Assembly (NCBI RefSeq): GCF_002305895.1
Contig: NZ_CP022203.1
Span: forward strand, 5,986,001 to 6,050,000
DNA: 64,000 nucleotides
Source: Corallococcus macrosporus DSM 14697
Lineage (GTDB): Bacteria; Myxococcota; Myxococcia; Myxococcales; Myxococcaceae
Direction of reading: 5' to 3'
Part shown: piece by piece, positions 6,857 through 50,504 of the stretch
Numbering within the stretch: position 1 is the stretch's first letter
How the letters are laid out: each line of letters opens with the position of its first letter
Translations under genes and position numbers: made by a program
The notes under the pieces: generated by a model
Databases searched by the model: none
Seen by the model: the letters and a program-made list of their open reading frames with translations, nothing else
What the model was told of the DNA's origin: nothing

Positions 6857-9800
6857 CTACCTGCGCACCTGTACCTCCACGTGCGTACCCAGGGCGACGC
6901 GCAGCGCGTGCAGGTCCTCGGAGGTGGCGAACACCAGCAGTTCCCGCAGCTTGTTGCGCACCGGGACGCGGAAGGCGGAGCCCGTCTCGCCCTGCACCAT
7001 GCGGCGCACCGGCTCCATCTCTCCGGCCGCGAGCAGGCCCGCGCGCGCCGCGGTGAGCTCCGCGCCCTCCAGGTACTGGCGCACGGCCTGCGGCGTGGCG
7101 GTGGGCAGCCAGGCGCGGGCCGCCTTCGCCAGCGCGGCGCGATCCGGCTCGTTGAGGCTCCGCTCCAGCAGCCGGCGCTCCGGCTCCACCAGGTGCTGTG
7201 CCTCCGCGATGCGCACGTTCCCCACGACGAGGCTCAGCGCCGCCTGGAGGATGGCCTCCAGCCGCTCGGGCGCCACACGCTGGCTGAAGGCCAGCTCGGA
7301 GCGCGCCAGGGCCAGGGTGCGGCCCAGGAGGTAATAGACCTCCTTCTGGCCCTGCTCCGCGAAGTACTTGCCGCCCACGCGCAGCGAGGCCGGGTGCGTC
7401 TGGAGCAGCTCCACGTGGATGAGCGGCTCGGGCGCGGGTTCATTGGAGCGCTTCGCCATCCGCTCACGCGTGGCCACCAAGAAGGGCGAGTACAGCTCCA
7501 CCGCCTCCATGCCCAGCACGCGCGCCACGTACCGGTAGTGGTGGACGTGGTACTCGGGCGCGCTGGCCACGTCGATGCGGTGGCGCTTGGGCACGAGCTG
7601 GTACTGCTGGAACGGCACCGCGTACAGGTGCCCCACCTTCGCGAAGAGCAAGCCCAGCAGCTCCGCCAGCGGGCCGCGCGCCTTCGGGTGGAACAGGTGG
7701 TTGTGCCAGAGCTGGTCGTTCAGCGACCGAGGCTCCACCTTCTCCTTGTTCTTCGCGTAGGGCCCCAGCTTGGTGAGGATCTCCTGCTCGTCCTCCCCTG
7801 CCTCGCCCAGCAGGCCGGACACCGCCTGCGCCGCGAGCCAGGCGCCGTCATAGTCCTTGCGCAGCGCGGACAGCCGCACCAGCGCGCCCACCACCTTGCG
7901 CGGGTCCGCCGTGTTGGGCAGCGCGCGGCGCAGCGCGGCGATGGCCTCGTCCTCGCGGCCCGGCATCTGGCCCGCGAGGTCCGCGAAGGCCTCCTGCACC
8001 GCCGCGTCGTCGGGCAGGCCCTTGGCGGCCACGCCGTACGCGGCCACCGCGCCCTCCGGGTGCTTGAGCACCTGGAGGTACAAGTCGCCGAGCGCGCGCC
8101 ACAGCGCCATGCGCGCCACGTGCGTCTCCGGCGTCTTGGGCAGCCGGCCCAGCATCTTCGTGTAGTTCTCCTCGAGCTGCTTCCACTGGCGCGCGGCGCC
8201 GAGCATCGCCTCCAGCGCGCTGAAGGCCTCCACGAAGCGCGGGTCCAGGTCCAGGGCGGCGTTGAAGGCCTCGGTGGCGCCTTCCACGTCCTTCAGGTCA
8301 TCGCGGCGCAGCTCGCCCAGCGCGAACCAGACGCGCTTGGCCTTGTGCGGCTCCAGGCCCAGCGCGGGCAGCGCGAGCATCCGCGCCAGCACGTCCGCGG
8401 CCTTCTGGCCCTGGCGCGTCTCACGCAGCAGCACATAGAGCTGGTCCATCACCTCCGGCGCGTCCGGCTGCGACTTGAGCGCGTTGGTGAAGGCGTCAAT
8501 GGCCATGTACGGGTCGTGCAGCTCGTCGCGCGCGATGCGGCCCAGCTCCAGGCACACCTTCGCGCGGGCCTCGCCCTCCAGCACGCCCACCAACTGCTGC
8601 CGCAGCTCGGCGGACTTCTCGTACTGGCCCTCCTTCTCCAGGAGCGCCACCAGCGCGCGCAGCGTCGGCTCGTGGCCCGGGTCGATGGCCAGCGCCTTCT
8701 CGAAGTGGTTCTGCGCGCGGTCCTTCTGGCTCAGCGCGGCGTGGATGTCACCGAGCTGCCAGTACACCTCCACCACCTCCAGGTCCGTCAGCTCCTCGCG
8801 GTGGTGGATGAGGATGGTCTGGAACACCTTGAGCGCGCCCTCGTAGCGGCGCGTCTGCACCAGCAGGTTGCCGTAGCCCTCCAGCGCGGGCAGGTACGTC
8901 GCGTCCAGCTCGTAGGCCTTCTCGTAGCAGCCCAGCGCCTTGTCGCGCTTGCCCAGCTTCTCCGCCACGTAGCCCAGGCGGTAGAGCTGGCGGCAGAGGT
9001 CCGCGGCGGAGACGGAGTCCTTGTCCGCCACCGCCATCTCCGCCATCTTCCGCGTGACGATGTCCAGCATCCGCTCGCCGGACGCCCAGTCCTCCTGCGC
9101 GATGTACACGTCCGACAGCGGGCGCGCGGCCTCCAGGCTGTCCGGGATGTGCTTCAGCGCTTCCTGCCAGTAGCCCGTCGCGGTGTCACGGTCCTCGCGC
9201 GTCTCCGCGTGGTAGCGCGCCACGTCCAGCAGCGCGCGGCCCTTGGCGACTGGGTCCTCGGTCTGCTCCGCCTCCTGGCGCAGCGTCTGCTCGTAGCCGC
9301 TCCAGTCCTGCTCCTGCTCCTGGATGCCCTTGAGGGCGCGGATGCTGGGCAGGTGGCCCGGGTCCACCGCGAGGGCCTGCTGATAGGCGCCGCGGGCGCT
9401 GCCCGTGTCCATCAGCATGTCCTCGTTGATCTTCCCCAAGCGGTAGTACAGCTCCACCGCGTCCTTCGACTGCCCGGCGAGCTCCGCCTCCTTCGACAGC
9501 ATCTCCAGCGCGAAGGGCCAGTTGCCGCTGCGCTCGTACATCGTGCCCAGCGCGTGCAGCGCCGGGCGGCACTCGGGGTCCACGGAGAGCGCCGCGTGGT
9601 AGTTGTTCACCGCGCGGTCCAGCGCCTTGAGCTGCTGGTACTGGACGTTGCCGATGTCCACGTAGAGCTCGGCCTGCTCCTGCGGGCTGACGGCCAGCGC
9701 GAGCTGCCGCTCGTACGCCGCGATGAGGTCCTCCCACCGCGCCTGCGCCCGGCGCAGCCGGATGAGCGTCTTGATGGCCTGGACGTTCTGCGGGTCGATG

Positions 9801-12800
9801 GCGAGCACGCTCTCCACGCACACGTCCGCGTTCGCCGGGTTCTGGTACTTGTCCTCCCAGAGGGTCGCGCTGCGGAAGAGGACGCGAATCTTCTCGCGCC
9901 AGTCGTCGCTCAGCTCCAGCATCCGCTCGTAGATGGCGAGCAGGTCCGCCGGGTGGTCCAGGCGCGTGTGGAGCCGCTCCAGCGACTCCAGCGCCTCGCG
10001 GTTGACGGGGTCGAACTCCAGCGCCTGCCGGTACGCGGCCACCGCGGACTCGTCGTCGCCGAGGTCGCGCTCGTAGACGCCCGCCACCTCCACCTGGATG
10101 CGCGCGCGCTCCTCGATGCTGTCCGCCAGGTCCCGCGCCCGCAGCAGCGTGGACGCCACGTCCGGCCATGAACGCTGCCGGCGGTACAGCGCGGTGAGCA
10201 CGCCGAGCGTCTCCGCGTCGGGCTCGAGCTCCAGCGCCCGCAGCAGCGCGCTGGCCGACTCGACGGGGTCCTCCAACTGCTCGTCCCAGACGCGGGCAAT
10301 CTCGCGGAGGATGCCCTTGCGCTGCTCGATGGAGCCGGCGGCCTCCAGCTTCTGCTCCAGCGCCACCACGTACTCGCGCTGACGTCCGCGCCGCTGGAAC
10401 ACCGCGGCGAGCCCGTCCAGCGCGGTGGCGTTGGTCGGGTCGAACTCCAGAATCTTCCGGAACGCCGCTTCCGCCGCCTGCGGGTCGTCCAGGTGCGTGT
10501 CGTGGACGCGCGCCAGCGTCGCGTAGAGGCGCTCGGCCAGGGCGCCACGGGGCAGCTCGTCGGCGACCTCTTCGTAGACGGCGGCCAGCTCCTCGTGGCT
10601 GCCCGTCTCGTCGGCCAGGCGCTCCACTTCCTCGCGCAGCGTGTCGTCCGACGCGTCCAGTTGGAGCGCGCGGCACAGCGCCAGGAAGGCCACGTCCTTC
10701 TGCCCCAGCCGCGCCTCCTGCACCCGGGCCAGCTCGCGCAGCGCGGCCAGCTTCTCCTCGTCGGTGACGAGGTGGGGCAGGTAGCGGTCCGTCACCTGGG
10801 CGTACGCGCGCCAGTCATTGTGCGTGCGGTACAGCTCACACGCGCGCTCGTAGGCCGTGCGGTTGGCCGGGTCCAGCTCCAGCACCTTCTCCAGCGCGCC
10901 CGAGGACAGCTCGGGCTTGCCGCCCTGCCCCACCCACAGGTCCGCCACGGCGAAGTACGTGGCCACGGCCTGCTCGCGCTCCTCCGTCAGCAGGTGCACC
11001 TGCACCTTCAACTCCAGCGCGCGCACCGCGTCGTTCCACGCACGCAGCGAGACGAAGAGGTCGTGCACGCGCTCCAGCTCGGGCACCTGGTGCGGCTCCA
11101 CCTCCAGCGCGCGGCGGGCGGCGTCCAGCGACTCCTCGCGGCGGCCCATGCCGGCCAGGACTTCCGCCAGGCGCAGGCGCAGCGCCTTCACGCCGTCGCT
11201 GCTCTCCTGGAGCGGAATCAGCCGGCGCAGCACGCCCACCAGCTCTTCGCGCTGGCCCGTCTCGTCGTACAGCTCGCGCAGCGTGTCGAGCACGCCCCGG
11301 TGACGCGCGTCCCGGTCCAGCGCGGCCTTGAAGTACGGCACCGCCTGCTCCGGCTGCTTCAACAGGCGGTACACGACGCGGCCCACGCGCTCGTTGAGGC
11401 GCACGACCTCGCGGGGGTCCAGCGTCACCGCCAGCCGGCCCTCCAGCAGCTCGCGCAGGTCCTGTGCGCGGTCGGCGCGCTCGTACAGCGACTCCAGCGC
11501 GGTGAAGGCCTGCTCGTTGCGCGCGTTCTTCGCCAGCAGCTCGCGGTACAGCTCGATGGAGCGGTCCAGGTCCGCCAGGCCTTCGGCGGACACCTGCGCC
11601 ATCTTCGCCAGCACGCGGTCGCGCTCGGCGCCCGACACCTTCTCCGCCTGGAGCTTCAGGATGCCGTAGAGCTTCTCCGACGCGCCGGCCCCCTCGTAGA
11701 TGCCCTCCAGCAGCCGCGCCGACGCGAGGTGCTCCGGGTCCAACGCCAGGATGCCTTCGTAGGCCCCCGCCGCGCGGTCCGGGCTGTCCAGCCGCTCCTG
11801 GTAGAGCTGGCCCAGGCGGAACAGGTAGCCCACCCGGTCCGCGGGCGCCTTCTCGCCAGCGACCAGCGCCTCCAGGATGCCCGCCAGCTCCGGCCAGGCC
11901 TCCAGTTGGAGGTACAGCCGGTCCAACGCCACCAGCGACGGCTCCTGCACCGTGGGGTGCAGCGTGCGCGCGCGCTCGTAGTAGGAGACCGCGCGGTCCG
12001 GGTCGCGCAGCTTCGTCTCCAGCATCTGCCCCAGCCGCAGGCAGACCTGCGCGGCGTCCGCGGCCTCCGCGATGCGCGGCAGGGCCTCTTCGTACGCGGC
12101 CAGCAGCTCGTCATAGCTGGCGGACGCATCCGCCGCGTTCTCCAGCCGCGCGCGAATCGGGGCGTCGTTCGGGTCTTCCTTGAAGGCGCGGAAGAGCGCC
12201 AGGAAGGCCAGCTCCGCCTCCTCCTGGGACTCGCGCAGCGTGGCCAGCTCGCCCAGGAGCGCCTTGCGCTCGAACGCGTCGCCGGACACGCCGACGCGCA
12301 TCTCGATGACCTGCGCCAGGCGCGAGATGTCGCCGCTGGCACGCAGGGCGCGCAGCAACGTCTCCACCGCGAGCAGGTTCTGCGGCTCGCGGGACACCAG
12401 CGCCTCCATGCGGCCCACCGCGCCCGCGTGGTTGGGCTGCACCGACAGCACCTCGCCGTACAGCGCCAGCGCGCCGGTCCGGTCCAACAGCCGCGACTCG
12501 CGCACGGTGGCCAGGCGGAACTTCAGCTCCAGGCCCTCCTCCGCGGGAATCAGCGCGATGCGGCGGGCCAGCGCGTCCGCCAGCTCCGGCCAGCGCTCCT
12601 GCTTCTGGCAGAGCGCCTCCATGCGCTCCAGCGTGGGCAGGTCATCCGGCTTGAGCTCCAGCAGGCGCCGGAAGGTGGCGAGCGCGCCCAGCGCGTCCTG
12701 GAGCTGCTCCTCCTGGAGCGTGCCCATCTGGAAGAGCACCGTGGCGCGCCGCGCCGGCTCCTCCTCCACCGCGAGCTGCCGGCGCAGCACCTCCAGCAGC

Positions 12801-15800
12801 TCCGAGGGCTTGCCCTGCGACGCCACCAGCCGCACCGTGCCGTCCAGCGCCTCGGTGTCCGTGGGCCGCAGCTCCAAAACGCGCTTCCACGAGGCCAGCG
12901 CCTCGGTGGGCTCGCCCAGGTCCGTCTGGATGCGGGCCAGCGCGCGGTACAGCTCGGCGCGGGAGGCATCCCCCGCCTTGCCCACCACCTCCGTCAGGAC
13001 GGCGGCCAGCTCCTCGGGCGCCTCGGCCTGGTCCACCAGCGAGACGCACAGCTCCAGCGAACGCAGGTCGTCCGGCAGCTCGCGCAGCGCGCGCGTGGCG
13101 GCCAGGAAGCCCATCTCCGCGTTCTCCAGCGAGTTGGCGTAGATCTCCGCGATGCGGCGCAGCAGCGCGGCGCGCTCCTGCGGCACGGCCTCCGCCGAGG
13201 CGCGGGACTCCAGCATCTCCACCTGCTTCAGGTGGTTGCCCACCGAGGCGAAGATGGGCTCCAGCGCGCTGGCCGCGGCGCCACGCAGCGGGCTCTCCGA
13301 GCGCGCCATCTCCTCCAGCGCGCCCACCGCGCCAGCGTGGCCCGCCCGGCGCGTCAGCACCGACTGGTACAGCTCCAGCGCGCCGCGCGGGTCATCCAGG
13401 CGGGACACCTTCAGCCGCCCCAGGCGCACGCGCAGCTCGGACGCCTCTTCCTGGGCGCCGCGCTCGTCCGCGAGCTGAACCTCCCGCTCGATGTGCTGCG
13501 CCAGCTCCGGCCAGCGCTCCATCTCCGCCAGCACGCGGCCCAGCAGCTTCAGCGCGTTGGCGTTCTCCGGCCGCAGGCCGAGGATTTCCCGGTACGACTG
13601 CGCCGCCAGCGCCTTGTCCGCCAGCGTCTCCTCCGCCAGGTGCGCCAGCTCGAAGAGCAGGTTCACCTGCGAGGAGGCGTTGGGCTCGGCCGCCACCTGC
13701 CGGCGCATGACGAGCGCCAGCTCCCGGTGCGCGCCGGTGCGGCGGTGCACGCGGGCGAGGGCGTCCAGCACCGCCTTGTTCTGCGGGTCGCGGCGCGACA
13801 CCTCCTCCAGCGCGCGGACCGCCAGGTCGTAGCGCTTGAGGCGGTTGTCGTAGATGCCGGCCAGCCGCCGCCACAAGTCACCCGCGAGCGGCTCCTGCGC
13901 GCCGCGCTCCAACTGGTCCTCGTAGGCGGCCGCGACCTCCTCGAAGGCGCCGGAGTCGGCGGCGAGCCGCTCCAGCTCATCGCGCACCGGCGCCTCCTGG
14001 GGCGCCTCGTTGAAGGCGCGCAGCCGCGCGACGAAGGCGAGCGACGTCTGCCCGAGCGCCTCGCGCAGGGTGGCGATCTCCTGGATGTGCTCCAGCCGCC
14101 GCTCGGGCGCCACGCCCGGCAGCAGGACCTCGAGCACGTCCACCAGCTTCCGGGTGTCGTTGACGCCGCGGTAGACGGGCTCCAGCAGACGCGCCGCCTC
14201 GGCCCGTGGCGCCTCGTGCGCCATCAGTCGCTCCAGGCCCGCGACCACCTGTCCATCCCCGGGCGCCAGCTCCAGCAGGCGCCGGTACACCGGCAGCGAC
14301 TCCGCCGGCCCCACTTCCTTCTCCAGGAGCTGCGCGCGCTTCAGCAGCCAGTTTCGCCGCGCGCCCTCATCCGCCGCGCTGTCCGCGAGCTGGTCCAGCA
14401 CGTCCGCCTGCTCCACGAAGCGCCGCGCCTTCGCGTAGAGCTTCTCCAGCGCGAGCAGGCCGTCGGGCACCTTCCGGAGCGCCAGCGCGGAGCGGTACGT
14501 CTCGATGGCCTTCGCGTCCTCACCCGCGTTCGCGTAGGCCTCACCCGCCTTGAGGAGCAGCCCCACGCGCTCGTCCGGGTCGGTGGAGAGCTGCGCCTGA
14601 CGCGTGTAGACCTCGGACAGGCTCTTGGCGTTCTGCCCCTTCTCGTACAGGCGGGAGAGGGCCTCCAACGCCTGCCGGTCCTGCGGCGCGTCCGCCAGCA
14701 GGCTCTTCCACAGCCGCGCGGCCTCCTCGGGCTGGTCCAGCGACTCACGCAGCTCCGCCGCGCGCCGCAGCAGATTCAGCGCGGAGGGGTCCCCCGCGTT
14801 CAGCTCGGTCGCCGCCGTCTCGTAGATTTCGGCCAGGACCTCGTGCGAGCCCGTCTCGCGCGCCAGCCGCTCCAGGTCGGGCTGCACGCCCTCCCGGTCC
14901 AGCCCCTGCGCGAAGGACTTCACCGCGGACATGAACGCCAGCGAGGGCTGGAGCATGTCGCGCTCGTAGATGCGGCGAACCTCCCCCGCGAGGAGGATCT
15001 TCTCCACGGTGAGCGCGGAGGCCATGCGCGCCTCGCGCAGCGCCACGCGGCGGGCGTGGTCGCCCACCTGCACCAGCACCGGGTCCAGCACCTCCAGCGC
15101 CGCGCCGCTCGCGGGCACCGCCGCCTTCACCCAGGCCTCAAGCGCCGCGCGCGCGCCGGGGTGGCCCGGGTCCTCGGCGAGGATCCTCCGGTAGAGGCCC
15201 AGTGCCGCGTTCGGGTCGTCCAGCACGGTGCGCTGGAGCTCCGCCAGGCGGAAGGAGACCTCACGCCCCTGCGGGCTCTGCCCCTCCTGGTTGCGGCGCA
15301 GCGCCAGCGCCCAGGCCAGGTCGGAGTGACGGGCGCTCTCGGTGTAGAGCCGGTCCAGCGTCGCCGCGGCCTCGCGGCTCGCCGGGTCGCGCTCCGCGAT
15401 GATGCGCCACGCGTCGGCCGCGCTCTCCTTGTCCATCAACTTCGTCTCGTGCAGCAGCGCCGCCTCGCGCAGGAAGGCGAGCTGCTCGGCGGGCTCCGGC
15501 GACGCCGCGGCCAGCTTCTCCAGCACCTCGGCGAGCGCGGCCCACTCCTCGCCCGCGCGGTGCAGCCGCTGCAGGGCGCGCAGGCAGTCCAGGCTGCCCG
15601 GCTCGATGGCCAGCAGCGCGCGCAACGCCTGCACCGCGCCAGCCTTGTCGTCCAGCTTCTTCTCCTGCACCTCGGCCAGCTCGCGCAGCAGCGCCAGGCG
15701 CGCCGAACCGACGTCCCCCTCCTCGGCCAGCTCCGCGAGAATCTCCGCGTAGCTGTCCAGCGAGTCCGCGTCCTCCGCCGCCTGCCGCGCCGACGAGCGC

Positions 15801-18800
15801 AGCCCCGCGTCACCCGGCGCCAGGCGCAGGGCGCGCGCCAGCGCCGCGAAGGCCAGCTCCGGCTGGCGCAGGTGCGTCAGGTGGACCTGGGCCGCCTGCC
15901 GCAGGGCCTGCACGCGCGCGCCGTCGTCCTTCGCCACCTCCGCCAGCACGTCCAGCGTGGCCACCAGCTTGCGGTGGTCCTTGGTGCGCTCGAAGGCGGG
16001 CACCAGGACGCGCGCGGCCGCCTCGCGCGCGGGGCCCGAGGCGAGCATCGCCTCCAACGCCGCCAGCGCGTCCGGGTCCGTGGGACGCTGCAGCAGGATG
16101 TCCGCGTAGCTCTGCACCGCCTCCGCGCTGCCGTCCTGCGACTCCTGGAGCAGGTGCGCGCGACGCAGCTTCAGCCGCGCCACCTTGTCGGCGTCTCCCG
16201 CCGACTCGGCCAGGGCGATCATCCGCGCCAGCGTGTCCCCCAGCTCCCGCGTGCGGCCGGCCTTCTCGTACAGCTCCGCCAGGCGCGGCAGGTGCCGGCC
16301 TTCCTCGGCGCCGTGGGAGAGCGCGGACTGCAGCGCCTCGGCCGCCTGGGCGGCACGGCCCAGCTCCGTGTTGAGGTCCACCAACTGGAGCAGCAGCTCC
16401 AGCCGCTCCGGGCCACGCGCGCCCTGGATGCGCTTGCGCAAGAGCCCCTCCGCGTCCGCGGACCGGCCCGCGCGCCCGTACAGGCGAACCAGCCGCTGCA
16501 GCACCGCGTTCGACTCGGGCGCGCGGCCCACCGCCGCCTCCAGGGCCGTGATGGCCTCCGCCGCGAGCGCGCCCTCCTCCGCCAGGCTCGCCGCCTCCAG
16601 CAGCAGCGGCACGGCCACCGCGGGGTCCTCGGACTCGGAGGCCAACGTGCGCAGCGCGCGCCCCAGCTCCGCGTGCGCGGACAAATCCCTGGCCAGGCGC
16701 AGCGCCTCCGCGCGGGCCCCTTCGTCCTTCGCGTCCTCGCGCAGCGCGCGCACCCGCACGTCGAAGGCCGCGCGGCTGTCCGCGAGCTGCTTCTCGTGGA
16801 TGCTGGCCAGCAGCGCGAAGAGGCGCTTGCGGGCCGAGGACTCCGTCGTCACCTCCAGTTGCTGCTGGAGCGCCGCCACCTGCCGCTGGTGGTCACCGCT
16901 GCGGCCGTAGTGCGAAGCCAGCGCCTCCGTCACCTCCGCCGTGCGGATGCCCGCCGCCGCCAGCCGCTCCAGCCCGCCCACCACCACGCCGGTGGAGACG
17001 TTCTCGGAGAGCAACCCGAGGAACAGGTCCGTCGCGTCCTCCTGACGGCCCAGCCGCTCGGCGTACAGCTTCGCCTGGCGCGCCGTCCATTCGTTGCGCT
17101 CGAGCTGCGTCTCCGCCAGCCCCGCGAGCCGCCCCGCCAGCGCCGCCGCCTCGTCGAACTTCGACAGCGCCACGCACAGCGCCTGCAGCCGCTGCACGCC
17201 CGCCGCGTCCTCCGGCGCCATCTGCACCCACTGGCGCGCCAGCGGCTCCAGCTCCTCGGGCCCCGCGCCCGCCGCCTCGCGCCGGGACAGGTCCGCTTCC
17301 AGCCGCGCCTTCGGGTCGTCCGCGAGCGCCGCGGCCGCCTGGAGCGACTTCACCGCCTCCGCCGCGGCCGCGTCCCCCGGGACGCGCGCCAGCACCTCCC
17401 GCCACGCGGCCTCCGCGCGCACCGGGTCCGCCAGGGAGCCCTGCAGCAACTGCGCGAGCTGCCGCCAGAGCGTGGCCGCCACCTCCGCACCCGGCGCCGC
17501 GTGCGCCGCGCGCTGCAGCGCCAGCGCCAGCGCGGGCTGCGCCTGGGCCTTCTCCGCGTGCTCCACCACCGTGCCCAGCAGCAACGGCCGGCCCGGCTCC
17601 AGCTCCAGCGCGCGTGACAGCACCTCGAAGGCCCCGCGCGCGTCGTCCTTCTCCTCGAACATCAGCGCGAGCGCCTCGCAGAAGGCCACCCGCTCCGGGC
17701 GAGGACGCGGCGCCAGCAGCGCCAGGTCCAGCAGCGGCACCACCGCGTCCAGCGCCTCGTCCTCGGCCAGCAGGCGTGCCAGGTGGAAGGCCGCCAGCGC
17801 CTGCGTGGGGTCCAGCTTCAGCGCCGCTTCCAGGTGCTCGCGCGCGGCGTCCGCGTCCCTGAGCTGCGTCAGGAACAGGTCCGCCAGCCGCAGCCGCATG
17901 CTCGCCTGGATGGAGCGGTCCTTCACCGTGCCCAGGTAGCGCTCCAACACCGCGACGGCTTCCGGAGCCCGGCCCTTCTCCAGCAACTGCTCGGCCGTCA
18001 GGCTGGCCGCGTCCGCGCGGGACGGGTCCGCCGCCACCGCCTTCTCGAAGGCGGCCAGCGCGCCGTCCGCGTCGTTCATCCGGCCCAGCCGCAGCGTGCC
18101 CACGCGCAGCCACAGGTCCACCTGCGCGGTGCGGTCCTTCACCTCACCCGCCATGGCTTCGATCTGCGCGACGGCCGGAGCGAAGTCACCGCCCGAACGC
18201 AGCGTCAGCTTCTCGATGAGCGACAGCCCCTCGGGCATGCCCGGCCACAGCAGGAAGCAGCGGTCCAGCGCCTCCTTCACCTTCGCCGCCGCGCCCGGGT
18301 CGTACCAGGCGAAGAGCTTCGCCACGAGCAGCGACAGGCGCGCCGCGCTCTTCCGGTCACGCTCCTCCAGCGACATGCTGCGCAGCATCCGCACCCGGTC
18401 ACGCCAGGTCTGCTCGAAGCGCTGCAGCGCCCGCGCGGCCTTCTCCAGGCGCGCGTTCCGCGGCTCCAGCGCGCGGGCCACGTCCACCACCCGCTGCGCC
18501 AGCTCGTGCTCGGTGGGGTCGTCCACCAGGCGCTCGGCGAACGCGGCGTACTCCTCCGCCATGCCCTCGTCGCCCAGCGCCGCGCGCTCCCGCTCCAGCG
18601 CCTCGAAGGCCGGCTGGAAGCGCTCCTCCGACAACAGCAACTGACGCACGCGGCGGAAGACGGCGCGGTCCGGCTTCGCGCGCGCCGCCCGCTGCAGGCA
18701 CAGCACCGCCCTGTCCCGGCGGAACAGCTTCTGCTCGTAGACGTCCGCCGCCTTCAGGTAGTGGCCCGCGCTCTCCTCGCCCTGCGTGACGCCGCCCAGG

Positions 18801-19138
18801 CGCTCCAGCACTTCCGCCAGCGCGGCGCCGTCCTGTCGCGACTCGTGCAGCCGCTTGAGGCCGCGCAGCGCGGGGAGCGGATCCTTCGCCACCAGCAGCG
18901 CGCGCTTGAGCAGCTCCTCCGCGCGCTGCGTGTTGCGCTGGCGATCATGCGCGAGCTCCGCGGCGCGGCACAGCAGGCGCACCGCTTCGTCGGAGACGAC
19001 ATCGCGCGAGCGCCCCTCATAGAGGCGAATCAGGTCCTCGACCCGGCCGGCCTTTTCGAGTGCCGCTTCGGTTTCAACGAAGGTGCGGTCATCGGACACG
19101 CGCAGCGTGGGACGCGACGAGGGCGTGGGCTGTTGCAT
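6857..19138 (-). CDS. gltI: Giant TPR gliding protein GltI (AgmK)
   Basis: Tetratricopeptide-repeat protein of 4093 residues, the largest gene here. There is no signal peptide or membrane segment, so cytoplasmic location is inferred. Almost the whole length is helical repeats of 34 to about 40 residues with TPR signatures (A-x-x-x-Y/L-R-x-I/L-L-x-x-x-P at repeat ends, for example [22 protein letters not shown]). Only the last about 300 residues depart from it ([19 protein letters not shown], then a helical domain with [13 protein letters not shown]). By position between gltH and gltJ and by size it matches AgmK/GltI of M. xanthus, which I recall as about 3800 residues, so this copy appears longer. 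The ATG at 19138 ([10 protein letters not shown]) is chosen because upstream in-frame sequence runs through a hairpin; no strong Shine-Dalgarno is visible. Confidence 0.9.
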
Positions 19139-19176
19139 GGAGGGGCGGGCCTTGGAATGGAAAGAAAAAGCAGCGA

Positions 19177-19215
19177 GGGCGCCAGTGACCGGAACTCTAC
19201 CGGTCGCCAGCGCCC
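19177..19215 (-). terminator. Long hairpin in the gltI leader (attenuator or terminator)
   Basis: An outer 6-bp stem (GGGCGC/GCGCCC), a 2x2 internal loop and an inner 8-bp stem (GTGACCGG/CCGGTCGC) close a 7-base loop. On the minus strand it is followed within 7 bases by CTTTTTCTTTCC and ends 39 bases before the gltI ATG. It could terminate read-through from the upstream gene or act in the gltI leader. Confidence 0.55.
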
Positions 19216-19230
19216 CCGAGCAATCGTGCA

Positions 19231-19249
19231 AAACCCGCCAAACGGCGGG
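19231..19249 (-). terminator. Terminator after the Gly/Arg-rich TPR gene
   Basis: On the minus strand CCCGCC, loop GTTT, GGCGGG is followed directly by TTTTGC, 17 bases past the stop codon at 19267. It has the form of an intrinsic terminator and suggests that gltI-gltJ are at least partly transcribed separately. Confidence 0.65.
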
Positions 19250-19266
19250 AATCATTGGCCTTCTTG

Positions 19267-44020: not shown

Positions 44021-44227
44021 GGCCGAAAGGTAGGGACTGCGAATTTCGGCCGTCTGCCCGCGGGGAATAGATGCCTGGGGAGCGGGCAGCCAACCTACAA
44101 GCATCGGGATTCCGGACGTTTCGCGCACCCTCCGGGCGCCTTTTCCGTTTTCCGGCCGTGCCGTGTCCATGGAGGCAGACACGCTGCTGCACGGCCCGCC
44201 GGGGGCCGGTTGAAAGGAACATGGACC

Positions 44228-45211
44228 ATGCTGCGCAAGAGCCTGCTGTGTGCCGCCCTGCTGGTGACGGGCTGTGGTGACGACGCGACGAGCGACGAAG
44301 ACGCCTTCCGGGGCGGGCTGCCCTCCAGGGAGATGGTGGAGATGCGCTCGCCGTCCAGGAATGACGGGCAGGGGCTGACGGCCTTCTACGGTGAGGGTCA
44401 GCAGGCGGAGTACTACCGCGCGACGGTGGCGGCGGCGGCCACCGTCAACCTGGGCACTGCGGGCGTGCTCAACCTCATCGAGGAGATCGTCAAGCACGTC
44501 CCCACGTCCATCAACGGGGACGTGGCCGTCTGGGGGCCGCACACCGGCGCGCTGGACGCCGTGACGTGGAAGCTGACCGTCACCCGCACCGGCGAGCACA
44601 GCTACACCTGGGTCCTGGAGGGCAAGGGCAAGGATGAGCCGGACACCACCTTCGTGGCCTTCCTCTCCGGCGCGCACACCGCCTCCGTCAACGCGGACGG
44701 CGAGCGCGTCCGGGGCCATGGCTCGGGTGAGTTCCTCATCGACTGGGAGAAGGCGAACACGCTGCCCGGCGTCACCGGAGACGACGTGGGCACGGCGGAG
44801 ATTCGCTACGCGCGCGTCGCTGGCGCGGCGGAGGCGTCCGTGGAGGCGGACCTCCACCAGGTGCGCGACGAGGAGCGCCCGGACACCCGCGTGGACGCCG
44901 TCTACCGCTTCAGGCAGGCGGTGGGCGCGGGCGGCGAGTTGGACTTCGTCATCCGTAAGGACATCGACACGGACCCGCGCCGCGCGGCGCTGGAAAACCT
45001 GGCCATCAAGAGCCGCTGGGAGGCGACGGGCGCGGGCCGCGCGGACATCAAGCTGTCTGGCGGGGACCTGTTCGGTGAGGCCACGCTGAGTGAATGCTGG
45101 GGCAGCGACTTCCTGAGCGCCTACTTCATCCTCAGCGTCAATCCGGTCCTGGGTTACGGCGAGCTGAGCGCCTGCGGAAACTTCGACACCGCCGTCTACT
45201 CCACGCTGTGA
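44228..45211 (+). CDS. Lipoprotein, first gene of the caspase operon
   Basis: Lipoprotein of 327 residues (signal MLRKSLLCAALL, lipobox VTGC with Cys16). It shares a diffuse but clear pattern with the last gene of the operon (48162-49121): V-x-G-x-x-x-x-x-L-P-x-R-E near the start, A/R-V-W-G-P, W-V/A-F-L-S-G near the middle and a C-terminal E-C-W after a GD-strand. The two are paralogues. There is no enzyme motif; the body looks beta-rich and periplasmic or surface exposed. AAAGGAA lies 8 bases before the ATG at 44228. It precedes the sigma gene by 22 bases. Confidence 0.78.
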   Translation: MLRKSLLCAALLVTGCGDDATSDEDAFRGGLPSREMVEMRSPSRNDGQGLTAFYGEGQQAEYYRATVAAAATVNLGTAGVLNLIEEIVKHVPTSINGDVAVWGPHTGALDAVTWKLTVTRTGEHSYTWVLEGKGKDEPDTTFVAFLSGAHTASVNADGERVRGHGSGEFLIDWEKANTLPGVTGDDVGTAEIRYARVAGAAEASVEADLHQVRDEERPDTRVDAVYRFRQAVGAGGELDFVIRKDIDTDPRRAALENLAIKSRWEATGAGRADIKLSGGDLFGEATLSECWGSDFLSAYFILSVNPVLGYGELSACGNFDTAVYSTL

Positions 45212-45233
45212 CGCGCGCGGTAGTCTGCGCCGT

Positions 45234-45776
45234 GTGACGGGAACGAACCGGCCGCGCCTCCAGGTGGTTCCAGGTGGTCCACGACAGGACCGCCGGGCCT
45301 TCCTGCGGGAGTTGTATATGAAACATGGCGGCAGCGTGCTGGGGCGCTGCCGCTACCTGTTGAAGGACGCGACGAAGGCGGAGGATGCGATGCACGACGT
45401 GTTCGCCCGCGCCCTCACTCACGGCGAGGACTTCCGCGCGGAGGCCTCGCCGCTGACGTGGCTGATGAAGATTGCCACCCACCACTGCCTCAACCAGCTT
45501 CGCGGCGAGCGCGCCGGCTGGCGCCAGTGGTTCGAGCGGGACGCCGCCGCCCGCCCGGAAGGACACGGCGGCCAGGAGGCCATGGAGACGCGGGACCTGG
45601 TGCGCCGGCTGCTGGCGCGCGTGGACCTGGAGACACAAGCGGCCGCCGTCCACTACCACGTCGACGGCATGACACTGGAAGAGGTGGCCTCGCTGCTGGG
45701 GCGCTCCGTGCCCACCATCCGCAAGCGCCTGGAGCACTTCGCCGCGCTGGGCGGAGAGGAGCTGAACGTCCGATGA
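45234..45776 (+). CDS. ECF-type RNA polymerase sigma factor
   Basis: Sigma-70 family ECF sigma factor of 180 residues. Region 2 spans about 22-90 (LGRCRYLLKDATKAEDAMHD, then FARALTHGEDFRAEASPLTW), and region 4 is the C-terminal HTH (DGMTLEEVASLLGRSVPTIR). The start is GTG without a visible Shine-Dalgarno, read by coupling from the lipoprotein gene; the internal ATG at codon 29 would remove part of region 2. Its partner is the membrane protein encoded immediately downstream with a four-base overlap. It probably activates its own operon in response to an envelope signal (inference). Confidence 0.9.
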   Translation: MTGTNRPRLQVVPGGPRQDRRAFLRELYMKHGGSVLGRCRYLLKDATKAEDAMHDVFARALTHGEDFRAEASPLTWLMKIATHHCLNQLRGERAGWRQWFERDAAARPEGHGGQEAMETRDLVRRLLARVDLETQAAAVHYHVDGMTLEEVASLLGRSVPTIRKRLEHFAALGGEELNVR

Positions 45777-46558
45777 GCGCGCACGAATCGGAATGGAACC
45801 TGCGCCGGTTGAGCGCCGGGGACCTGGCCGCCGCCGAGGCCGCCCGGGTCCAGGCCCACGCCACCGCGTGTGAGGCCTGCGCCCGGACGCTCCGCGGCAT
45901 CGAGGCGGCCCAGTCGCGCTTCGAAGCGGAGGTGCCCTTCGAGCGCTTCGAGGCCGGGGTGGAGCAGGCCCTGCGGCGCCAGGAGCGTGAAGCGGCCTCC
46001 CGTCCGCCGCCGCGCCGCTGGGTGGCGACGACGGTGGCCATCGCCGCGTCGGTGCTGGTGGTGGTGCTGGTGCGACCGCTGATGAACACCGGGGCGGACC
46101 CGGGCGCCATCGTGAGCCTCAACCGCATCAAGGGCGGCGCGATGGCGGAGCTGCGCATTGGAGGAGGGCTGGGGCCGCAGCGGGAGGCCATTCCCGGCAG
46201 GCCCGAAGCGCTGGAATACGGAGAGCGGGTGATGCTGGGCTACAAGGCGGGGACGCTCCGCTACGTGGCCGCGCTGTCGGTGGACGGCATTGGCGAGGTG
46301 ACCCCGCTGTTCCCCGACGCGGGCTCCAGCGTGCCGGTGGCGCCAGGCAACGGACAGCACTGGCTGCCCGGGGGCTGGGAGTTCACCGGCTCCGGAGCGG
46401 AGCGCGTCATCATGGTGCTGAGCGACGAGCCCCTGCCCGTGGACACCCTGGTGGAGGCCACCCGGCGCGCCTTCGCCCGGGCGGATGGCGACGTCGAGCG
46501 GATGGCCGAGCTGGAAGTGCCCGGAGCGCAGACGCACTGGGTGCTCCAGAAGCCATGA
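45773..46558 (+). CDS. Zinc-finger transmembrane anti-sigma candidate
   Basis: Membrane protein of 261 residues. The N-terminal cytoplasmic part carries an H-x-x-x-C-x-x-C motif (HATACEAC, about 28-35), the zf-HC2 signature of ZAS-type anti-sigma factors. One transmembrane helix at about 84-103 (VATTVAIAASVLVVVLV) and a periplasmic domain of about 155 residues follow (GERVMLGYKAGTLRYVAALS, DGIGEVTPLFPD, DGWE-type strand). The periplasmic part resembles DUF4384-type sensor domains found beside caspase genes (inference). The gene overlaps the sigma gene by four bases and the caspase gene by four bases. Confidence 0.85.
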   Translation: MSAHESEWNLRRLSAGDLAAAEAARVQAHATACEACARTLRGIEAAQSRFEAEVPFERFEAGVEQALRRQEREAASRPPPRRWVATTVAIAASVLVVVLVRPLMNTGADPGAIVSLNRIKGGAMAELRIGGGLGPQREAIPGRPEALEYGERVMLGYKAGTLRYVAALSVDGIGEVTPLFPDAGSSVPVAPGNGQHWLPGGWEFTGSGAERVIMVLSDEPLPVDTLVEATRRAFARADGDVERMAELEVPGAQTHWVLQKP

Positions 46559-48150
46559 GCCACCCGCCCCGCCACCTGCGCGCCCTGGCCGTGGCGCTCG
46601 CCCTGGTGGCGGCCGCCGCGGACGCGGACCCGCTGCGCCGCTTCGCCCTGGTGGCCGGCAACGACCAGGGCGGCGCCGACACGCGCCCGCTGCGCTTCGC
46701 CCGGGACGACGCGCGGAAGATGCATGCGCTCCTGCTGCGGCTGGGCGGGGTGACTCCGGCGGACGCGAAGCTGCTGCTGAACGAGGACGCGCGGGACTTC
46801 CTGGCGGCGCTGGCGGAGCTGGAGCAGCGCGCCCGCGCGGCCCGGGCGCGGGGGGAGCGCACCGCGCTGTTCGTCTACTACTCCGGCCACGCGAAGGACG
46901 GCGCGCTGCGGCTGGGCGACACGCGGCTGGGCTTCGACGACCTCAAGCGCCGGCTCGCCGAGGCGCCCTCGGACATCCGCATCGCCATCCTGGACTCGTG
47001 CCGCTCCGGCGCGCTGACGCGCACCAAGGGCGCGCGGCGGGCCCCGGCGTTCGACATCGATTCGGGCGCGGGCCGCGACGCGCGCGGGCTGGTCATCCTC
47101 ACCTCCAGCGCGGCGGACGAGGACTCGCAGGAGTCGGACGCGCTGGCGGGCAGCTTCTTCTCACACCACCTGGCCAGCGGCCTGCTGGGCGACGCGGACC
47201 GCAGCGGCGACGGGCGCGTGACGCTGTTCGAGGCCTACTCCCACGCCTACGCCCGCACGGTGGCGGACACGGCGGCCAGCAGCGCGGGGCCCCAGCACCC
47301 GACGTTCAGTTACGATTTGGCGGGCAACGGCGACCTCGTCATGACGGACCTGCGCGCCAGCGGCGGAGGGCTCGTCGTCCCGGGCACGGCGCCGGTGGGC
47401 ACCTACTACTTCGTGGACCTGGGCGGCCTCGTCGTCGCGGAGCTGGTCAAGGCGGCGGACGTGGAGCGGCGGGTGGCGCTGGCGCCGGGCACCTACCGCG
47501 TGAAGCGCCGGCTGCCGGACCGGCTGCGCGTCGGCGAGGTGGAGGTGCGGCGGGGCCAGCAGGCGGTGCTGCACGAGGCGCGGCTCCAGGACGCCCCCTT
47601 CTCCGACGACCCGGTGAAGGGCGTCCCGCGCCGCGACGGCGCGTGGTGGACGCTGGGGCTGGCGGGTGGCGTGCAGTCCTACTTCGACGCGCCCACGCGC
47701 GACGCGCTGTTCCTGTCGGTGGGGATGGTGGGCGCGGAGGCCCAGCTCCACGACTACTTCCGCCGCGACTGGGTGTGGGGCCTGGACGTGGCCCTGGGCA
47801 GCCGGCGGGCGGTGCTGATGCTGCCGACGCTGACGGGGCCGGCGTACCGCTACGCGATGACGAGCGTGGGCACGTCGCTGACCTCCGAGTGGCCCCTGGG
47901 CCGCGTGGCGCCCTTCCTGGGCGCGCGGATGGCGTGGCTCCACATGCGCCGCGACTTCGAGGACGAAGCCCTGCCGGACCAGACCTTCGCCATGTTCTCC
48001 CCCGGCCTGGTGGCGGGCGTACGTTGGAATCCCCTGTCCCGGCTGCACCTCACGGCGAGGGCCCGGACCCACTACCTGCTCTACAACGTCGATGCAGAGC
48101 GCTCGCTGGGCTTCTGGGAGCTGGGCGCGCTGGTGACGTACCAGCCATGA
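46555..48150 (+). CDS. Exported caspase-like protein with C-terminal barrel
   Basis: Protein of 531 residues with a signal peptide (ALAVALALVAAAADA) and then a caspase/metacaspase (peptidase C14) domain at about 27-250. The catalytic dyad is His112 in YYSGHAKDG and Cys149 in LDSCRSGAL. A PEGA-like beta domain (about 275-345) follows, and the last about 170 residues alternate in amphipathic strands (WWTLGLAGGVQSYFDAP, FLSVGMVGAEAQLHDYF, GRVAPFLGARMAWLHM) ending in an aromatic-rich LVTYQP, like an outer-membrane barrel. A protease that is secreted and possibly tethered to the outer membrane is unusual for caspases, which are mostly cytosolic. The start overlaps the anti-sigma gene by four bases. 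Confidence 0.85.
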   Translation: MSHPPRHLRALAVALALVAAAADADPLRRFALVAGNDQGGADTRPLRFARDDARKMHALLLRLGGVTPADAKLLLNEDARDFLAALAELEQRARAARARGERTALFVYYSGHAKDGALRLGDTRLGFDDLKRRLAEAPSDIRIAILDSCRSGALTRTKGARRAPAFDIDSGAGRDARGLVILTSSAADEDSQESDALAGSFFSHHLASGLLGDADRSGDGRVTLFEAYSHAYARTVADTAASSAGPQHPTFSYDLAGNGDLVMTDLRASGGGLVVPGTAPVGTYYFVDLGGLVVAELVKAADVERRVALAPGTYRVKRRLPDRLRVGEVEVRRGQQAVLHEARLQDAPFSDDPVKGVPRRDGAWWTLGLAGGVQSYFDAPTRDALFLSVGMVGAEAQLHDYFRRDWVWGLDVALGSRRAVLMLPTLTGPAYRYAMTSVGTSLTSEWPLGRVAPFLGARMAWLHMRRDFEDEALPDQTFAMFSPGLVAGVRWNPLSRLHLTARARTHYLLYNVDAERSLGFWELGALVTYQP

Positions 48151-48161
48151 AGGAGCACGCG

Positions 48162-49121
48162 ATGCGACACCTCCCGGTGGCCTGTCTGTGCCTGGCGCTG
48201 GCCGCGTGCGGCGGCGACTTCTCCAATGACGATTTGGAGTTCCTCAACGCGCTGCCCAGGCGCGAGGACCTGGCCGCGAAGCTGCCCGCGAAGGGCTCGG
48301 GCCGCGTGGGCGGCGGCTTGACGGCGCGCTCGGACGGGCTGGTGGTCCGCCTGGGCGAGACGTCCGAGCTGATGGGCGACACGGAGGAGACGGGGCGGGC
48401 CTTCAACACCAGCGTGGACGCCCTCCTCTCCCTGCTGGAGGACATCCGCGGCCTGCCCCCGACGACGCGCGAGCCGGACCGGCGGGTGTGGGGGCCCTTC
48501 CAGGACCGGGACCATGCGGGCCACGACGTCCGCTTCGTGATGACGCGCGAGGCGCCGAGCTTCGACTACCGGCTGGAGTACCGGAGGACGGGCGCCGGCG
48601 AGGCCGCGTGGTGGGCCTTCCTCAGCGGCACCTTCGCCGCGGACGCCGGCATCCGCAAGGGCGTGGGCAGCCTCCACCTGGACGTGGCGCGGGCTGAACA
48701 GGAGGGGCTGCCCGCCAGGGAGCTCGGGGCGCTGCGGCGGCTGGACATCCACTACCAGACGAAGGCGCTGCCCACCCAGGTGGAGCTGACCTTCACGCCC
48801 AGGGACGGCGCCTTCCCCGTGGCGCGCTACACCTACCGCGAGGCCCAGGGCGGCCTGGGGGAGATGCGCTTCCTCATGCCCGGGCGGGACCTGGTGCCGG
48901 GCGGGCTGCTGGAGGACCTGAGCCTGACGACGCGCTGGGCACCGGACGGCCGGGGGATGGCGGTGCTGGACGTGCTGAGCGGCGACATCCGGGGCGCGCA
49001 GTACACCGAGTGCTGGAACGCGCAGGGCCGCGTCAGCTTCACCGCGCGGAGCTGGGACTTCTTCAATCCCACCGAGGGCGAGCGCGCCACCTGCCCGGAC
49101 TTCTCCGCGCTGGACGGCTAG
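48162..49121 (+). CDS. Lipoprotein, last gene of the caspase operon
   Basis: Lipoprotein of 319 residues (signal MRHLPVACLCLA, ideal lipobox LAAC with Cys16), paralogous to the first lipoprotein of the operon. It shares R-x-W-G-P, W-W-A-F-L-S-G and the terminal YTECW pattern. An ATG at 48147 overlaps the caspase stop, but AAGGAG sits 6 bases before the ATG at 48162, so the latter is preferred. No function is assigned. Location on the outer membrane alongside the caspase-barrel protein is inferred from the signal and the operon. Confidence 0.78.
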   Translation: MRHLPVACLCLALAACGGDFSNDDLEFLNALPRREDLAAKLPAKGSGRVGGGLTARSDGLVVRLGETSELMGDTEETGRAFNTSVDALLSLLEDIRGLPPTTREPDRRVWGPFQDRDHAGHDVRFVMTREAPSFDYRLEYRRTGAGEAAWWAFLSGTFAADAGIRKGVGSLHLDVARAEQEGLPARELGALRRLDIHYQTKALPTQVELTFTPRDGAFPVARYTYREAQGGLGEMRFLMPGRDLVPGGLLEDLSLTTRWAPDGRGMAVLDVLSGDIRGAQYTECWNAQGRVSFTARSWDFFNPTEGERATCPDFSALDG

Positions 49122-49208: not shown

Positions 49209-50504
49209 ATGTCCAAGCCCTCCATCCTGGAAGTCCTCAAGAGCCCGCGCATCTGGCTGCTCGTGGCCGTTGGTTTCGCGTCGGGCCTGCCCCTGTGGCT
49301 GACGGGCGTCACGCTGTCGGCGTGGATGAAGGACGAGGGCGTCAACCTGAAGACGATTGGCGTCTTCGCCCTGGTCAGCATGCCCTACACCTTCAAGGTG
49401 CTCTGGGCGCCGCTGATGGACCGCTACACCCTGCCCTTCCTGGGCCGGCGGCGCGGGTGGATGCTGGTGACGCAGGTGCTGCTCATGGGCGCCATCGCCG
49501 CCATGGGCCTGGTGAACCCCAAGGACTCGCCGGTGGCCATGGCCGCCCTGGCGGTGCTGGTGACGTTCCTGTCCGCCAGCCAGGACATCGTCGCGGACGC
49601 GTGGCGCACGGACATCCTCACCGTGGAGGAGCGCGGGCTCGGCAACTCCACGTACATCACCGGCTACCGCCTGGGCATGCTCACCGCGGGCGCCCTGGCC
49701 CTGACGCTGTCCGACGTGGTCGGCTGGTCCCAGACGTACTTCATCATGGGCACGCTGATGGCCGTGGGCGTGGTGGCCACGCTGCTGGCGCCGGAGCCGC
49801 GGGGCTCGAAGCCGCCGCGCAACCTGACGGACGCGGTGGTGAAGCCCTTCGTGGAGTACTTCACGCGCAAGGGCGCCATCCCCGTCATCCTGTTCCTGGT
49901 GCTCTACAAGCTGGGAGACGCCATCGCCGCCGGCATGGTGACGCCCTTCTACAAGGAGCTGGGCTTCTCCAACACGGAGATTGGCGCGCTCAGCAAGGGC
50001 CTGGGCATGGTGTCCACCATCGCGGGCGGCCTGCTCGCGGGCGTGGTGATGGTGAAGCTGGGCACGCGGCGCAGCCTCTTCATCTTCGGCGCGGCGCAGG
50101 CGCTCACCAACCTGATGTTCATGGCGCTGTCCCTGGTGGGGAAGAATGACCTGATGCTGGCGGCCACCATCACCGTGGACAACCTCTGCGGCGGGCTGGC
50201 GGTGACGGCGTTCGCGGCCTACCTGATGTCGCTGTGCCACAAGAGCTTCAGCGCCACGCAGTACGCGCTCCTGTCCGCGCTGGGCACGGTGGCCAACCGG
50301 CTCATCTCCGCCAGCTCCGGCTACCTGGCCGAGTGGCTGGGCTGGCCCACCTTCTTCGCCGGCACCGTGCTGCTCGCCGTCCCGGCGCTGGTGCTGCTCG
50401 CGTTCCTCCCGGCGAACGCCGCCGCCCCGGCCGAGGACACGCCGGAGCCCGCCCCCGCGCCCCAGGGCGAGTCCTCCTCCAGCGCGGTGGCCGTGGCGCG
50501 CTGA
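49209..50504 (+). CDS. ampG: AmpG-family MFS permease
   Basis: Inner-membrane major-facilitator transporter of 431 residues with about twelve hydrophobic segments. AmpG-like motifs are present in the first half ([45 protein letters not shown]) and the second half carries [17 protein letters not shown] and the conserved G-x-R-R loop. AmpG imports anhydromuropeptides for cell-wall recycling, which can also induce beta-lactamase in other bacteria; substrate here is inferred from the family. The C-terminal 35 residues are a Pro/Ala-rich cytosolic tail. It stands alone after an 87-base gap. Confidence 0.9.

Follow-up and report, generated by a model that had tools for sequence, protein, structure and literature searches.

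The five-gene operon and its conservation

The window, the whole stretch of 64,000 nucleotides of the Corallococcus macrosporus DSM 14697 genome that was analyzed here, carries five genes in the order lipoprotein A, ECF sigma factor, candidate anti-sigma factor, caspase and lipoprotein B, spaced by 22, -4, -4 and -4 bases. Their coordinates, and those of the features discussed below, are collected in Table 1. The original prediction, made from the sequence alone, had placed the same genes at these positions and spacings and had proposed that the caspase carries a His112/Cys149 dyad and that the two lipoproteins are related; all of this was borne out, the dyad being present in every orthologue aligned, and A and B being paralogues with 27% identity (E 1e-16).

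Table 1. Genes, domains and candidate sites of the operon (positions are those of the window)
Feature	Position	Strand	Description
Promoter-like element TTTTCYGTTTT-N11-GTGTCC	44141-44168	+	Putative; ~60 bases before gene A; block conserved in 26-species alignment
Gene A	44228-45211	+	Predicted outer-membrane lipoprotein; no known family; C290-C316 pair conserved
ECF sigma factor	45234-45776	+	GTG start; Sigma70_r2 and region 4
Anti-sigma	45773-46558	+	HX3CX2C zinc motif; single membrane helix; periplasmic domain resembling DUF4384
Predicted cleavage site K120/G121, anti-sigma	46130-46135	+	R-I-K-G, juxtamembrane, periplasmic; K in 68/68 and G in 67/68 orthologues
Caspase	46555-48150	+	Signal peptide, caspase domain 27-265, beta domain ~272-347, predicted eight-stranded barrel 364-529
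Catalytic His112	46888-46890	+	69/69 orthologues
Catalytic Cys149	46999-47001	+	69/69 orthologues
Predicted self-cleavage site 1, K158/G159, caspase	47026-47031	+	K and G in 64/64; starts disordered loop 158-173
Predicted self-cleavage site 2, K355/G356, caspase	47617-47622	+	KG in 63/64 orthologues (alignment column)
Predicted outer-membrane beta-barrel domain	47644-48141	+	AlphaFold2, Foldseek, Pfam matches in orthologues
Gene B	48147-49121	+	Predicted lipoprotein, paralogue of A

In one scan of public genomes, the order A–sigma–anti-sigma–caspase–B was complete in 55 of 77 independent loci, and the remainder consists mostly of loci cut by contig ends or in which one gene was not detected. 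The five-gene set is real and conserved, not a product of chance, and the linkage in related genomes that had been anticipated is confirmed. The 77 loci were Myxococcota-like throughout; their titles are myxobacterial or deltaproteobacterial, except three with broader labels (one Comamonas, two Proteobacteria MAGs). The operon and flanks of the locus titled Comamonas sp. KCTC 72670 (L018) are 75-94% identical to those of the window, and this entry looks like a mislabelled myxobacterium. Outside the Myxococcota, a plasmid collection yielded no useful relative.

The flanking genes (AmpG, pgm and a divergent nucleotidyltransferase-like gene) are kept only among close genera, and since the operon persists further, we consider the operon to be the conserved unit and exclude the flanks from it. 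A function deduced from these neighbors was rejected for the same reason, as they are not conserved with the operon. The AmpG-family muropeptide transporter gene lies 3' of gene B (49209-50504, + strand); in L020-L025 and L048, the gene found there is only ~35% identical. The operon itself also varies: some distant loci lack A upstream and have a second A/B-type gene on the downstream side. In L124 and L130, the sigma, anti-sigma, caspase and B genes are followed in tandem by an A-like gene, and none was found upstream. In Myxococcus sp. CA023 (L094:6821-8309) the operon looks eroded, with A and the caspase truncated, B not found and AmpG close behind. Elsewhere in the window, positions 6857-19255 of the minus strand encode a 4132-residue protein composed largely of TPR repeats.

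The sigma factor contains both regions 2 and 4, as is characteristic of the ECF class, and matches TIGR02937 with 63.1 bits (cut-off 42.9). Its neighbor can be placed among the zinc-binding (ZAS) membrane anti-sigmas by its HX3CX2C motif (H29, C33 and C36), its single membrane helix and its operon with a sigma gene, inhibition of the sigma factor being predicted. The zf-HC2 score of this protein was below the cut-off in one search and just above it in another (22.8 with neighbors), and its periplasmic domain bears a weak likeness to DUF4384, which matches 45 of the 68 orthologues at E <= 0.05. Only two columns of the anti-sigma alignment are invariant, namely A92 within the helix and K120 immediately outside it. 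M50 site-2 proteases, which regulated intramembrane proteolysis requires, are present in the genome.

The promoter-like motif occurs only once without mismatch in the genome (8.97 Mb), with 0.04 expected in the window. One further genome match carries 2 mismatches, and a reversed control pattern yields an equal number. A regulon search with this motif gave no convincing second site in the genome, although degenerate ECF sites could escape such a search. The conserved block, unique in the genome as a perfect match, suggests autoregulation from this putative promoter and a small regulon, and it supports the earlier proposal that the caspase is under the control of its own ECF sigma factor.

Lipoproteins A and B matched no family but each other in family searches, and Pfam searches of both families gave nothing consistent. 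The lipobox cysteine is conserved in the two families. The AlphaFold2 model of A has a mean pLDDT of 88; its assignment to a porin or OspA fold was rejected, since the matches had low probability or a large rmsd and none was confident. The two lipoproteins may sense or tune a signal at the outer membrane.

An exported caspase with a predicted outer-membrane barrel

The caspase scores 41.7 bits against Peptidase_C14 (cut-off 21.4) and, with its caspase fold and His-Cys dyad, belongs with the C14/metacaspase-like peptidases. It starts with what we judged by eye to be a Sec-type signal peptide. With 60.5 bits against a curated 140, it falls outside the EACC1-associated caspases (NF047832). The AlphaFold2 model, built from an alignment of 64 orthologues, comprises a caspase domain, followed by a small beta domain and then by eight long strands (residues 364-529), with a mean pLDDT of 86 and a pTM of 0.64, a value at which the relative placement of the domains is not fixed. 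Among solved structures, a plant metacaspase matched best (Z 21.8; 210 residues superposed at an rmsd of 2.8), but caspases and legumain scored within 1 Z unit of it. Foldseek groups the caspase part with plant metacaspase 4 as well as with caspases and legumain.

In TbMCA2, a Lys/Arg-specific metacaspase, the S1 residues are Cys92, Asp95, Ser156 and Asp211 (PMC4357240). Three of these four have invariant counterparts in our protein when matched by sequence position (D52, S110 and D147, for D95, S156 and D211, respectively), giving a putative acidic S1 pocket that predicts Lys or Arg at P1. Metacaspases mature through cuts after Lys/Arg, which favors the pathway proposed below; against it, basic residues at the cut sites of CgMCA-I were not strictly required in vitro (PMC9622860).

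The C-terminal strands had been expected to form a barrel, and this was supported by the eight strands of the model and by Foldseek, which matched residues 364-529 to OmpA/NspA (E ~3e-8); the Opacity and OMP_b-brl Pfam models also match some of the caspase orthologues. The domain therefore corresponds to an OmpA-type eight-stranded barrel, whose closure is deduced from the fold match. In agreement with what had been suggested, the exported caspase is predicted to be anchored in the outer membrane by this C-terminal barrel. An even number of strands, together with an N-terminal passenger, would place the caspase domain in the periplasm, facing the anti-sigma.

A lysine-glycine signature in the caspase and the anti-sigma

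Three K-G dipeptides, two in the caspase and one in the anti-sigma, are candidate cleavage sites (Table 1). K158-G159 lies nine residues past the catalytic Cys, in a region with pLDDT <50; the second caspase site lies between the caspase part and the barrel, with pLDDT <50 at 356-360. In the anti-sigma orthologues, the motif that follows the helix is R-x-K-G. The window caspase contains just eight lysines in 531 residues. No conserved K-G-like site was found in the A or B families.

The signature extends to divergent relatives. In cluster counts that are not fully independent, the clusters coming from related family members, the pre-barrel linker carries [KR]G in 28/28 caspase clusters (set at <60% identity), as KG in 25 of them versus 2.1 expected from shuffling, and the wider anti-sigma family carries KG within 36 residues after the helix in 58 of 61 clusters versus 6.5 expected from shuffling. 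The three anti-sigma exceptions are one K-S, one K-A and one false hit. All positions of the pre-barrel linker but [KR]G vary among these divergent relatives, and the conservation of a P1-P1' pair alone, in otherwise free linkers, has the look of a protease site. K-G could also be structural, as the point at which the DUF4384-like domain or the linkers begin.

The caspase and anti-sigma sites agree only at P1 and P1', so that the pairing of each caspase with its own anti-sigma is putative. Matching at P3 was rejected as evidence of pairing: R/R is found in the window type, and the other types do not have it.

Caspases with a lysine in the linker tend to lie beside sigma genes. In a sample of 63 caspases, hand-picked for diversity and with related members, which makes the Fisher value descriptive, an ECF sigma gene was near 26/30 of the K-linker caspases, a count that includes the L009-like type, in which the linker lysine lies further along (G-[IV]-K-[SG]) and the pre-barrel site is missing, and near 1/33 of the other caspases. 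The L009 caspase (L009:3984-8012) has a barrel and is predicted to be a lipoprotein in its own right; its linker reads G-I-K-S-G, and Ala replaces the Asp two residues before the catalytic Cys. The K-G caspases of L240, L246 and L248 have no sigma gene within 4.5 kb. Conversely, no adjoining caspase gene was detected for the K-G anti-sigmas of L013 and L156, for which cleavage would need a caspase from elsewhere. In L013, a further unit of the C. macrosporus genome (G000:C1:297589-298323 and flanks), the sigma and anti-sigma genes are followed by a lone exported barrel, with no caspase, and the anti-sigma keeps R-I-K-G; by eye, the barrel resembles the C-terminus of the L006 caspase. A caspase-barrel gene with a K-G loop in the same genome (L007:4907-7093) might serve L013 in trans.

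Relatives of the anti-sigma were found in 164 of 195 Myxococcota genomes, often several in each, and nearly all of 40 divergent relatives sampled have a sigma gene on one side and a caspase gene on the other. Sigma/anti-sigma/caspase is a multi-copy cassette in the Myxococcota. The C. macrosporus genome encodes five caspases, four of which adjoin a sigma and/or anti-sigma gene; for the other (L007) neither was detected. At L219, L226, L231 and L235, K-G caspases are accompanied by a sigma/anti-sigma pair on the opposite strand or downstream, and the cassette is thus rearranged.

A proposed proteolytic pathway and its relation to known systems

We propose, with somewhat more confidence than doubt, that the operon forms a self-contained ECF pathway gated by proteolysis, in which the caspase cuts itself and the anti-sigma at K-G, freeing the sigma factor. 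The caspase would be exported and its C-terminal barrel inserted in the outer membrane, leaving the protease part in the periplasm. An envelope signal would trigger its maturation by a self-cut after K158, in the loop beside the active site, and a self-cut after K355 would release it from the barrel. Acting as a site-1 protease, the caspase would then cut the anti-sigma after K120, in its periplasmic stalk, a housekeeping site-2 protease would complete the breakdown of the anti-sigma, and the released sigma factor would transcribe its own operon from the promoter before A, generating more protease, inhibitor and both lipoproteins. We infer all the cleavage events, the sigma release, the autoregulation and the lipoprotein roles from a computed basis that comprises the gene set, synteny, catalytic residues, predicted barrel, three K-G sites, promoter-like block and M50 proteases. 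An envelope-stress role, as originally suggested, is possible. The chances are about even that the pathway extends beyond this locus, the barrel-tethered caspases of the Myxococcota being dedicated site-1 proteases of an expanded ECF class, with several units per genome, that cut themselves and their anti-sigmas between K and G.

The caspase gene follows the sigma gene in an operon that has a single promoter-like block, and the caspase could be only an output of the sigma factor. Stress would then be sensed in some other way and the caspase would be an envelope protease for quality control or cell death, its own K-G sites serving self-processing or structure and that of the anti-sigma being structural; the retention of K-G in the L013 operon fits this idea. 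Against it, the three sites in the two proteins have this one dipeptide in common and hardly anything more is conserved around it, and the K-linker caspases are the sigma-linked ones; we consider the idea rather unlikely. Classical site-1 proteases are DegS-like, and other proteases are expected in such a large genome, one of which might cut the anti-sigma at K-G while the caspase cuts only itself and acts further downstream. This we regard as improbable, since the anti-sigma shares K-G with the caspase's own linkers and the other zf-HC2 matches of the genome have no literal K-G after the helix, though a helix is unclear in several of them. Finally, the contact-dependent proteolysis of neighbors or prey by a secreted or surface caspase, raised in the original prediction, would fit the signal peptide and the predicted outer-membrane anchor, but it is most improbable, since the eight-stranded barrel with an N-terminal passenger would keep the caspase periplasmic and no secretion or passenger-translocation feature was seen in it.

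The proposed caspase pathway has precedents in part. As in DegS/RseA/RpoE and other systems of regulated intramembrane proteolysis, an ECF sigma factor would be restrained by an anti-sigma that sits in the membrane and has a periplasmic domain; unlike DegS, a PDZ serine protease, the candidate site-1 protease here is a caspase of the same operon with a predicted tether to the outer membrane. In the Csx29/Csx30/CASP-sigma system of type III-E CRISPR, a caspase-like protease frees an ECF sigma factor by cutting its inhibitor (PMC10028731). Both systems set a caspase-like protease against the inhibitor of an ECF-like sigma, with cleavage predicted in ours; Csx29 is an RNA-activated TPR-CHAT protease on Cas7-11, whereas in the operon a barrel-bearing, exported C14 caspase is accompanied by a membrane zinc-motif anti-sigma. 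The window protein yields only Peptidase_C14 and is exported, and hence is not a Craspase.

The EACC2-caspase systems show the same coupling of a caspase with an ECF sigma factor, together with a constant EACC2 domain and a DUF1822 partner, and the available portion of their description contains no anti-sigma/barrel unit (Kaur et al. 2021, PMC8195603). DUF1822 had no match among the five genes, which places the operon outside the EACC2/DUF1822 caspase-ECF systems. In the ECF54 context, a caspase-fold (CHAT) protein is likewise found near an ECF sigma gene, but ECF54 is proposed to act without an anti-sigma (PMC8999054), which is present here.

According to the available portion of Asplund-Samuelsson et al. 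(2012, PMC3501461), four of the five metacaspases of M. xanthus are encoded in operons that include sigma-70 factors, an adjacency that C. macrosporus shares, likewise with four of five caspases linked to sigma/anti-sigma genes, and caspase–sigma association also occurs in Anaeromyxobacter, Haliangium, Sorangium, Ralstonia and Fibrobacter. The original prediction had held that no system of this composition was described. That is incorrect for the sigma–caspase operons, reported in 2012, but stands for the rest, since barrel anchoring, the lipoprotein pair, the anti-sigma, the K-G sites and a mechanism are not described in that portion of the paper. Our search of the open-access literature brought up no barrel-tethered caspase whose anti-sigma carries matching sites. 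The operon is a real conserved system, and what is new in it is the K-G signature common to caspase and anti-sigma, the caspase–sigma link having been known since 2012.

To our knowledge, the role of the bacterial caspase homologues is largely unknown, and they are usually discussed in terms of cell death or phage defence. The proposed pathway is a signalling hypothesis at the level of residues, since it names the exact candidate scissile bonds in two proteins. If it is true, the adjacency of caspase and sigma genes in myxobacteria, noted in 2012 without a mechanism, would be accounted for, a caspase would be added to the few site-1 proteases known from sigma pathways, and bacterial caspases would be envelope signalling switches and not death enzymes alone.
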